NCBI GenBank assembly: GCA_016866755.1
Contig: VGLK01000004.1
Location: forward strand, 1 to 64,000
DNA length: 64,000 nt
Direction: 5' to 3'
From: Candidatus Saccharimonadota bacterium
GTDB lineage: Bacteria > Patescibacteriota > Saccharimonadia > Saccharimonadales > Saccharimonadaceae
In this document: one piece after another, positions 12,524-19,402 of the stretch
How the letters are laid out: each line of letters starts with the position of its first letter
How positions within the stretch are numbered: position 1 is the first letter of the stretch
Program-made: the position numbers and the translations under genes
Notes under the pieces: generated by a model
Told to the model about the DNA's origin: nothing
Seen by the model: the letters and a program-made list of their open reading frames with translations, nothing else
The model's database searches: none

Positions 12524-12579
12524 TCATGTTTTCCCTTTCATAATAGCACATAGTTTACAAATGTTGTACGCTAAAAGGT

Positions 12580-13602
12580 ATGAATATTCATACCAACATT
12601 GCACTTAAAAGCTTTACGACCATGCGACTCGGCGGCATGGCCGACGTTATGGTAGAACTTAAAAGCCTCGAGGACATTACATCTCTCTACACTCAGGCGG
12701 CGGAACGTCAACTGCCGGTTTATATTTTAGGTAGTGGCAGTAACGTAATTGCGCGTGACGAGGGTTACCGCGGCATTGTAGCACTGAACAGAATTATGGG
12801 ATTTGAAATTGTTCAAGAAGACGAAATGAGCGTTACAATTCGGGTAGGTGCCGGTGAAAACTGGGACGAATTTTGTGCAAAAACAGTTGAAATGGGACTT
12901 TCCGGAATTGCCGCAATGTCGGCTATACCAGGAACTTGCGGCGCATCGCCTGTGCAGAACATTGGCGCGTACGGGCAAGAAGCCGCCGATGTTATTGTTT
13001 CCGTAGAAGCTTACGACACTACCTCTGGTCAATTTGTCGAGCTATCAGCCGAAGACTGTAAATTTTCGTACCGACATAGCATTTTTCGAGGCGAAGCCGC
13101 TGGTAAATATTGTATTACTGCGGTTACATTTCGGCTTTATCGGGGTATGCCGCAGCCGCCATTTTACGATGCCCTACAAAACTACCTAGATAGTCAAAAC
13201 ATCACCCTATATACACCGCAAGTAATTCGCGACGCCGTAACAGCTATTCGTGCCAAAAAACTTCCCGATCCTGCCATTCAACCCAACACTGGTTCGTTTT
13301 TTAAAAATAGTGTTGTTGAGAAATGGCTGTACGACGAAGTCGCCACTAAGTTTCCCGATGTGCCACACTATGACATGCCAGATGGGCAGATTAAAATCCC
13401 GACCGGCTGGCTGATTGAGCAAACTGGTCTTAAAGGCCAGCTACTCCATGGTATGCGTATAAATCCAGCCAATGCGCTAGTATTGATTAACGAATCTGCT
13501 GGCTCTTACAGCGATTTGGCGGCCGCCCGCGAAGAGATTATTACTCAGGTGCGAGATATGTTTAGAATCACCATCGAACAAGAGCCACTCGAACTAGTCT
13601 AG
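12580..13602 (+). CDS. murB: UDP-N-acetylenolpyruvoylglucosamine reductase MurB
   Basis: Catalyses the NADPH-dependent reduction that yields UDP-N-acetylmuramate, the step after MurA in peptidoglycan synthesis. 340 aa, type I (E. coli-like) architecture. The FAD-binding loop GSGSNVIARDEGYRG, the segment GTCGASPVQNIGAYGQE, catalytic SYRHS (Arg165 region) and the proton donor Ser239 in NTGSFFKN are visible. TACGCT lies 7 nt before the ATG, so it is probably leaderless. MurA is encoded 4 kb downstream. Cytosolic. Confidence 0.95.
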   Translation: MNIHTNIALKSFTTMRLGGMADVMVELKSLEDITSLYTQAAERQLPVYILGSGSNVIARDEGYRGIVALNRIMGFEIVQEDEMSVTIRVGAGENWDEFCAKTVEMGLSGIAAMSAIPGTCGASPVQNIGAYGQEAADVIVSVEAYDTTSGQFVELSAEDCKFSYRHSIFRGEAAGKYCITAVTFRLYRGMPQPPFYDALQNYLDSQNITLYTPQVIRDAVTAIRAKKLPDPAIQPNTGSFFKNSVVEKWLYDEVATKFPDVPHYDMPDGQIKIPTGWLIEQTGLKGQLLHGMRINPANALVLINESAGSYSDLAAAREEIITQVRDMFRITIEQEPLELV

Positions 13603-15458: not shown

Positions 15459-15917
15459 ATGAATCTTCAAAACAAAACTAAACAATCTGGTTTTACCATT
15501 GTTGAGCTTTTGATTGTAATTGTTGTGATTGCGATCTTGGCCGCCATAACCATTGTGGCGTACAACGGTATCCAAAATAGGGCTAAAACATCAAGTGCTC
15601 AATCACTTGCTAGTAACGTCGCAAAAAAAGCCGAGGCCTTTAACACCATCGAGAGCTCATACCCAGCAAATAACACTTCGTTTAACGCCACTGGTGCACC
15701 TGCCGAATCACGCCTTGATGATGCAGCAGCCGTGACTGGATCAACAACCGCACTTCCGACAGACGAGAAAACCGTTAAGTACGTTCGTTGTGGAACTGGT
15801 GCTAAAGTTGTCTACCGAAGTGCAGCCGAAAACACTCATGTAGTAATTGGCGTAGGTGGAGCAAACACAGCCGCACTAGCTGGGTCTGGCAATACTACAA
15901 CACCATATTCTTGCTAA
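15459..15917 (+). CDS. Major-type pilin, copy 1
   Basis: A 152-aa pilin. Leader MNLQNKTKQSG is cleaved before FTIVELLIVIVVIAILAAI (Glu+5). The helix continues to about residue 50 (AYNGIQNRAK), and the head carries one pair of cysteines (VRCGTG and the C-terminal YSC), the usual pilin disulphide. AGGGGG 8-13 nt upstream is a strong ribosome-binding site, unlike most genes here, which fits high expression. Partly terminated from copy 2 by a hairpin at 15939. Confidence 0.9.
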   Translation: MNLQNKTKQSGFTIVELLIVIVVIAILAAITIVAYNGIQNRAKTSSAQSLASNVAKKAEAFNTIESSYPANNTSFNATGAPAESRLDDAAAVTGSTTALPTDEKTVKYVRCGTGAKVVYRSAAENTHVVIGVGGANTAALAGSGNTTTPYSC

Positions 15918-16035: not shown

Positions 16036-16467
16036 ATGAATCTTCAAAACAAAACTAAACAATCTGGTTTTACCATTGTTGAGCTTTTGATTGTAATTGT
16101 TGTGATTGCGATCTTGGCCGCCATAACCATTGTGGCGTACAACGGTATCCAAAATAGGGCTAAAAGCTCAAGCGCGCAGGCACTTGCAAACAACGTTAGC
16201 AAAAAAGCTGAAGCTTACAATACAATCGAAAGTTCGTACCCTACTCTTGCACAACTTACTGGTACCACAGGTCCACAAGAGGCACGACTCGATAATACTG
16301 GTTCCGCAATATCGACAGCTCCAACAACCACTAACGGTACTACTGCTGTTCAGTATGTACCTTGCGGTACCACTGGCGCTCGTATTCACTGGTTCGACTA
16401 CGCTAATAACCGACTATCTTCGGCCAATACGCCATCAACCTCTATTACAATTGGCACCGGCTGCTAA
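16036..16467 (+). CDS. Major-type pilin, copy 2
   Basis: A 143-aa pilin. The first 43 codons are identical to copy 1; the head domain then diverges. Cys pair VPCGTTG and GTGC at the C-terminus. It has the same AGGGGG ribosome-binding site in a small hairpin. The conserved N-terminal helix packs in the fibre core, while the divergent head would be surface-exposed, so the two copies may form antigenically or functionally different pili. Confidence 0.9.
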   Translation: MNLQNKTKQSGFTIVELLIVIVVIAILAAITIVAYNGIQNRAKSSSAQALANNVSKKAEAYNTIESSYPTLAQLTGTTGPQEARLDNTGSAISTAPTTTNGTTAVQYVPCGTTGARIHWFDYANNRLSSANTPSTSITIGTGC

Positions 16468-17830: not shown

Positions 17831-17870
17831 AGTATACCATTTGTTGACTTTATATCATAGATGATATAAG
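17831..17870. promoter_or_regulatory. Divergent glyA/HTH-murA promoter with 20-bp perfect palindrome
   Basis: TTATATCAT-AG-ATGATATAA at 17850-17869 is a perfect inverted repeat with 9-bp arms. It lies between TTGACT (17844-17849) and TATAAG (17865-17870) of the murA promoter, and next to the glyA -10 (TATACT on the minus strand, 17831-17836). The murA ATG is 8 nt after its -10. The site is ideally placed as an operator, and the adjacent gene product itself starts with an XRE-type HTH. Confidence 0.75.
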
Positions 17871-17878
17871 CTAACGCT

Positions 17879-19402
17879 ATGACTACCGATACGTATGTAC
17901 ACAAAATTGGAAAACTTATTCAAGATACTCGTCAATCTAAAGGCATGACACAAGCCCAGTTGGCCGAAAAACTAAACACCAGCCAAAGCGCCATTAACCG
18001 CATAGAAAACGGCGGCCAAAATCTTAGCCTAGAGATGGTTGCACGCATTAGCGAAGTATTGTCTCAAAACATTGTTACGCTTAATAAAACTGGTAAAATG
18101 AATTTTAAAGTACACGGCGGCAAAGAACTCTACGGTGAAATTGAGGTAAAAACTAGCAAAAATGCCGCAGTAGGACTACTGTGCGCTAGTCTACTTAATA
18201 AGGGCAAAACAACGTTACACCGCGTAGCGCGCATAGAAGAAGTTAACCGTATTATTGAAGTACTTAACAGCATTGGCGTTAAGACCAAATGGCTAGAAAA
18301 TAACGATTTAGAAATCATTCCGCCAAAACGCTTGCAGCTTGAAAACATGGATATTGAAGCCGCTAAACGTACCCGTACGGTAATTATGTTTCTTGGCCCA
18401 CTGCTTCATCAATACAACGACTTTAAACTGCCGTTCGCTGGTGGCTGCAACCTTGGTACGCGCACCGTAGAGCCTCACCTTACAGGTCTCGAACCATTTG
18501 GTATGCGTGTCGAAGCCACAACCGATCACTACCACGCAACTATTGCACCACGTGAAGTCTCGCGCTCTATTTTACTAACTGAACGCGGCGATACCGTAAC
18601 AGAAAACGTTATTATGGCAGCCGCCCGCTACAACGGCACAACGACAATTCGCAATGCCAGTCCTAACTACATGGTGCAAGATGTCTGTTTCTTTCTTGAA
18701 AAACTGGGTGTAAAAATTGAAGGCATTGGCACAACCACCCTTAAAATTACCGGCGTAAAAGAAATCAACAAAACTGTCGACTACTACCCAAGCGAAGACC
18801 CAATTGAAGCTATGAGTTTTATTGCTGCTGGCATCGTAACAGATTCTGAAATTACCGTTAAACGTGTGCCAATCGAGTTTACCGAGATAGAACTGGCAGT
18901 ACTTGAAGGCATGGGACTTGCTTATGAACGAAGCGCCGAATATACCGCCCGCAACGGTCGCACGCGGCTTGTTGATATTTCGTTAAAAAAATCTCAGCTA
19001 CATGCGCCTAAAGATAAGCTTCATAGCATGCCTTTTCCGGGTGTAAACATGGATAACCTACCGTTTCTTGGGCTAATCGCAACGGCCGCACAAGGTCGTA
19101 CGTTGCTTCACGATTGGAGCTACGAAAATCGGGCAATTTACTTTACCGAGCTTTCAAAACTTAACGCCCAAATTGAAATGGTTGATCCGCACCGCGTGTA
19201 TATATCTGGCCCAACCAAATGGAAGCCAGCCGACGTTGTAGCGCCACCGGCACTTCGGCCGTCTGTAGTAATTCTTCTTGCCATGCTTGCCGCCCCCGGT
19301 GAATCAATTCTCCGTGATGTTTATTCTATCAATCGCGGCTACGAAGAATTAGCCCAGCGCCTTAACACCATTGGCGCCGATATCACCACACTGGTAAATT
19401 AA
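17879..19402 (+). CDS. murA: XRE-family HTH fused to UDP-N-acetylglucosamine 1-carboxyvinyltransferase
   Basis: A 507-aa fusion. Residues 6-63 form an XRE/Cro-type helix-turn-helix ([20 protein letters not shown]). From about residue 73 a complete MurA follows, the enzyme transferring enolpyruvate from PEP to UDP-GlcNAc in the first committed peptidoglycan step. The active-site Lys94 (KTSKNAA) and Cys190 (GGCNLGTR, equivalent to E. coli Cys115, fosfomycin target) are kept. The 8-nt distance from the -10 makes the mRNA almost leaderless. A palindrome overlaps its promoter, so autoregulation is plausible but unproven. A terminator follows at 19411. Confidence 0.93.

Follow-up and report, generated by a model that had tools for sequence, protein, structure and literature searches.

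A MurA fused to a helix-turn-helix domain in Saccharimonadales very probably binds a conserved operator at its own promoter

The biotin ligase-repressor BirA is an essential enzyme with an N-terminal helix-turn-helix (HTH) domain that represses at an inverted-repeat operator, controlling the biotin operon, and it is gated by its own reaction intermediate. XRE antitoxins of the HipB/Y4mF type likewise bind a dyad operator and repress their own expression. To our knowledge, few essential biosynthetic enzymes act as their own repressor. MurA (UDP-GlcNAc enolpyruvyl transferase) is the essential enzyme of the first committed step in peptidoglycan synthesis. In the literature that we found, no self-repressing enzyme of this pathway is described, and there is no report of an HTH-MurA protein or of autoregulation by MurA.

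In Streptomyces, the gene of MurA2, SCO5998, adjoins the aconitase gene SCO5999 (PMC12161575), and MurA2 genes are reported to be a target of BldM-WhiI (PMC4125116) and SigB-dependent (PMC8346170). The available portions of these three papers make no mention of an HTH domain in MurA2 or of self-binding. The HTH-MurA fusion that we describe here also occurs in Streptomycetaceae, where its gene is divergent to an aconitase gene in the four loci inspected; in another Streptomyces, L329, the adjoining gene differs from aconitase. Since this aconitase neighbor matches the SCO5998-SCO5999 arrangement given in PMC12161575, the Streptomyces fusion appears to be MurA2 (SCO5998, sven5810, vnz_28735), and the fusion and MurA2 very probably belong to the same protein family, judging from sequence and gene context. 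One difference is that the Streptomyces genomes that we checked encode a canonical MurA besides the fusion, whereas the genome studied here has none.

The fusion gene (17879..19402, plus strand) lies in a stretch of 64,000 nucleotides, hereafter the window, which belongs to a Saccharimonadales-type genome of 848 kb that is 99.8% complete and whose closest named relatives are Candidatus Saccharibacteria. It encodes 507 amino acids, in which Pfam recognizes HTH_3 at residues 15-61 (E 2e-14) and EPSP_synthase/MurA at residues 79-495 (E 3e-46). From Pfam (HTH_3/HTH_31) and an AlphaFold2 model, we assign the XRE (XRE/Cro-CI) HTH domain to residues 11-64 (17909..18070, plus strand) and, from phmmer matches to solved MurA structures and from Foldseek (TM ~0.9), the MurA domain to residues 75-503 (18101..19387, plus strand). 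The model, with a mean pLDDT of 89, shows a four-helix HTH (helices 4-20, 25-31, 36-43, and 51-61), a flexible linker (66-72), and a MurA fold; only the first three residues and residues 189-194, a flexible loop that holds Cys190, are poorly modeled. The third helix, residues 36-43 (QSAINRIE; 17984..18007, plus strand), we assign as the recognition helix from its invariance and its helical form in the model: S35, Q36, S37, A38, R41, and E43 of this region are invariant in 45 fusions from two phyla. Most members of genus g2 show IHRIE in this helix where others have INRIE. The fusion of an XRE HTH to a complete MurA keeping Lys94 and Cys190, as originally predicted, is borne out by the open reading frame, by Pfam, and by the invariance of both residues among relatives.

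Among NCBIfam regulators, the HTH is nearest to TIGR03070 (HipB/Y4mF type; E 1e-13), although it scores below the cut-off of that model (50.9 vs 71.65 bits). These antitoxins are standalone proteins encoded beside a toxin gene, whereas the HTH described here is joined to MurA and has no toxin partner; the murA neighbors in the window are glyA and tRNA-His, with no toxin gene. The resemblance to BirA is one of kind, namely a DNA-binding domain on a biosynthetic enzyme with a conserved dyad operator at the target promoter, but the catalytic domains and the HTH types of the two proteins are unrelated, and gating in the fusion is hypothetical. In its way of working, the module would thus resemble BirA and other enzyme-repressors, whereas its descent is that of a divergent MurA.

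The EPSP-synthase fold spans the whole MurA domain (Pfam; Foldseek TM ~0.9 against MurA crystal structures). Canonical MurA (E. coli 1UAE, Acinetobacter 5U4H) shares this fold and the catalytic residues, but lacks the HTH and is only ~25-30% identical. The fusion retains the Cys, Lys, Asn, Arg, and Asp residues that serve catalysis in MurA, and K94, N95, R166, C190, R195, D392, R418, R460, and R486 are invariant across the fusions of two phyla. In E. coli numbering, we take Lys94 (18158..18160, plus strand) to be Lys22, Cys190 (18446..18448, plus strand) to be Cys115, and Asp392 (19052..19054, plus strand) to be probably Asp305, the last from an alignment by eye in which the fusion has one residue more than canonical MurA ahead of the catalytic Asp. 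The best NCBIfam match is the MurA subfamily PRK09369, whose cut-off is passed (331.5 vs 297 bits), whereas that of the strict murA equivalog TIGR01072 is missed (309.7 vs 392.7 bits), which is why we regard the protein as a divergent MurA. A family search found the fusion to be the sole MurA/EPSP-synthase-family (PF00275) gene of the genome, with no second MurA. In two Aeromicrobium genomes, G642 and G889, and in G857, the fusion is accompanied by just one AroA-like gene, and we found no canonical MurA; this lends good indirect support to the fusion being a functional MurA. These three are free-living Actinomycetota. The best reading of these sequence data is that the MurA domain is a working enzyme.

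Upstream of the gene, the predicted operator TTATATCAT-AG-ATGATATAA (17850..17869), recognized by conservation and arm symmetry, contains the dyad TATATCA-N4-TGATATA. It had been described as a 20-bp perfect palindrome; its 9-bp arms are indeed perfect, but the 2-bp center is not self-complementary. Neither does it lie between the -35 and the -10 of murA, as had been proposed: it starts directly after the putative -35 TTGACT (17844..17849, plus strand) and overlaps five bases of the putative extended -10 TG-A-TATAAG (17862..17870, plus strand), which we place from the sequence and the family-wide spacing, with a -35 to -10 spacer of 15 bp. The start codon follows 8 nt downstream of the -10 and is not preceded by a Shine-Dalgarno sequence, so that the transcript is probably leaderless. 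Family-wide, 148 of 186 starts are located 8-12 nt past the right arm, and a Shine-Dalgarno-like motif occurs in just 3. The exact dyad occurs once in the 848-kb genome and, allowing up to 2 mismatches, twice in the window, against 0.27 matches expected. The conservation of the operator is far stronger evidence than this rarity in the genome or the window.

Within Saccharimonadales, the fusion with its HTH spans the order, being present in about 57 of the 61 genomes that were searched, among them the genome of the window, whereas the other orders of the class have an ordinary MurA of ~420 residues without HTH. The dyad scores at least 12/14 upstream of 77 of 106 HTH-murA genes, compared to 2 of 841 control windows, so that the conservation of the palindrome upstream of other HTH-murA genes, the check proposed with the original prediction, gave a positive answer. 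With the rule relaxed slightly, each of the 21 named Saccharibacterial loci reaches at least 12. Since the right arm is at the same time a -10, we additionally picked sites on the basis of that arm only. Among these, complementarity of the left arm is seen at a spacer of 4 only, with 5.3 of 7 positions in Saccharimonadales against a background of ~2, and this complementarity exceeds that of all 1000 re-pairings of the arms. Nevertheless, the palindrome has decayed in some lineages, which weighs against the autorepressor reading: genera g2 and g12 (L061-L063, L090-L110) keep the HTH but have a left arm of TAT[GT]CA and a spacing one base longer, and in family f27 operator quality is mixed, about half of the sites being under 12/14.

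The same divergent MurA clade is also present in other families of Patescibacteria, where f61, f76, f115, and f159 have an intact HTH and the operator. The operator is lacking in clade members without HTH (L180-L195) and in f54 members whose HTH is missing or decayed (L175-L177), and within f115, G502 has both HTH and operator while G474 has neither. On the tree, a sign test counts only 2 to 4 independent events of joint loss and, because these are so few, the co-loss is suggestive rather than statistical proof.

Among 84,980 species genomes scanned, the fusion also turned up in Streptomyces, Kitasatospora, Aeromicrobium, Brachybacterium, and other Actinomycetota, with 62-67% identity; for the Streptomyces fusion, identity is 62-66% across the entire protein with its HTH. 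It occurs in 11 of 246 sampled Actinomycetota genomes, with no intermediates among the matches listed. In 71 of 72 actinobacterial loci, a TATCTCA-N4-TGAGATA-like site (at least 12/14, looser rule) is found just ahead of the start codon. At position 4, both arms mostly have A in Saccharimonadales and C in Actinomycetota, and the two arms are alike there in 164 of 213 sites compared to 89 expected; such symmetric co-change is the mark of a dyad that a single binding protein maintains. Phylogenetically, the actinobacterial sequences, represented by the best 80 matches, form one clade within the Saccharimonadales clade. A topology that keeps the Saccharimonadales (plus L164) together and excludes the actinobacterial genes is rejected (AU p 1.7e-5); nesting of these genes in f1, the family of the window itself, is not supported (AU p 0.76). 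The simplest reading, suggested by the sequences, is that Actinomycetota, to which the known Saccharibacterial hosts belong, received enzyme and operator together from a Saccharimonadales-like donor. On the aconitase side, a different palindrome, TATCTCGATGTCGAGATA, recurs 430-3200 bp ahead of the MurA domain in L350, L341, L343, and further Streptomyces loci, and is probably the site of another regulator.

Taken together, the conservation of the operator, the co-change of its arms, its absence where the HTH is missing or decayed, and its retention in a second phylum support what had been proposed from the single locus: the promoter of the fusion gene is very probably a binding site of HTH-MurA itself. 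Other explanations have to be weighed against this reading. Relatives hold further XRE proteins of similar HTH sequence, one of which could bind the palindrome while the HTH of MurA serves localization or protein contacts; we consider this highly improbable, given that, within one MurA clade, the site occurs where the fused HTH does, that it accompanied the fusion into another phylum, and that the recognition helix is invariant. Another reading takes the MurA domain to be no longer an enzyme, but merely the sensor of a regulator. The ~30% identity to canonical MurA and the score under the TIGR01072 cut-off point in this direction, but the nine invariant residues, the single MurA-family gene of a near-complete genome, and the three Actinomycetota genomes with the fusion as sole MurA leave it exceedingly improbable.

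Two more readings involve glyA, the divergent neighbor of murA in 65 of 106 loci, which encodes serine hydroxymethyltransferase (NCBIfam PRK00011; 16537..17814, minus strand). The palindrome might simply be a symmetric bidirectional promoter, with back-to-back extended -10s for murA and glyA and no protein operator, since an extended -10 (TGATATAA) makes up its right arm and, by symmetry, the left arm can be read as one on the opposite strand. We rejected this as very unlikely: the left arm is kept behind a co-oriented upstream gene (L028, L078, L088, L115) or an unrelated one, GC-rich Actinomycetota keep the arms in the form TATCTCA/TGAGATA, a sequence that is no -10, and the dyad is absent in relatives without intact HTH. 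Alternatively, the operator might serve glyA, or a joint murA-glyA regulon coupling the cell wall to glycine and one-carbon supply, as the original prediction held. In the window, the palindrome had been placed beside the glyA -10, but the putative -10 from a consensus scan (TATACT, 17831..17836, minus strand) sits 13 bp away, and it is a weak predicted glyA -35 (17853-17858) that lies inside the palindrome. Beyond this genome, control of glycine or one-carbon supply is unsupported: none of 22 glyA genes away from murA has the site (best score 11/14, the background level), whereas the palindrome stays with murA where glyA has moved off or another gene intervenes. We thus rejected the glyA operator as the main reading and find such a regulon rather unlikely; joint control of murA and glyA is not what has been conserved, although incidental co-control of glyA is possible where the intergenic region is shared, as in this genome.

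A wide regulon was also rejected, as there is one exact site in the genome of the window and the exact sites in relatives are mostly in or near unrelated genes. A more telling extension than glyA is murB, encoding the next enzyme of the pathway after MurA: a murA-type operator occurs upstream of murB in 3 of 29 relatives, L444 (G132), L452 (G010), and L427 (G029), with scores of 14/14, 13/14, and 12/14, respectively, and is absent before murB of the window's genome. The start codon of murB in the window is spanned by an 18-bp perfect palindrome, GGTATGAATATTCATACC (12577-12594), unlike the murA operator. About 300 bp ahead of an NrdR-like gene, the operator sequence is found with one mismatch in the genome of the window (L231 ~1512-1529, G000:C2:72112-72129) and exactly in G016 (L220 ~1572-1589); this site is a possible further operator. 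Elsewhere in the window, two tandem pilin-like genes (15459-15917 and 16036-16467) share near-identical N-termini (MNLQNKTKQSGFTIVELLIVIVVIAILAAI) and have diverged C-termini.

We consider it likely that the fusion is a working MurA doubling as the repressor of its own leaderless gene. In the mechanism that we propose, an HTH-MurA dimer would bind TATATCA-N4-TGATATA through its two XRE HTH domains; the occupied dyad would cover the extended -10 at the start of the leaderless transcript and shut out RNA polymerase, so that the level of MurA would be held by negative feedback. Repression is favored because the operator sits over the -10, although the bound protein may activate instead. Sensing of UDP-GlcNAc or PEP, which had also been proposed, is plausible, and we hypothesize that occupancy of the MurA site by these molecules gates repression, the fusion being sensor, catalyst, and repressor at once. 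This gating, combined with the passage of the enzyme-plus-operator module from a Saccharibacteria-like lineage to Actinomycetota, where it would have become MurA2 of Streptomyces and the sole MurA of Aeromicrobium, is a scenario that we put forward tentatively, at somewhat under even chances.

HTH-MurA and its operator thus appear to be a conserved autoregulatory enzyme module that has not been described before, and the conserved operator makes the claim of autoregulation directly testable. Its distribution suggests that genes have passed between ultrasmall epibionts and the phylum of their hosts. If autorepression is confirmed, genomes that encode few regulators would have a simple loop to control their cell-wall supply, and the second MurA of the tractable Streptomyces would gain a role.
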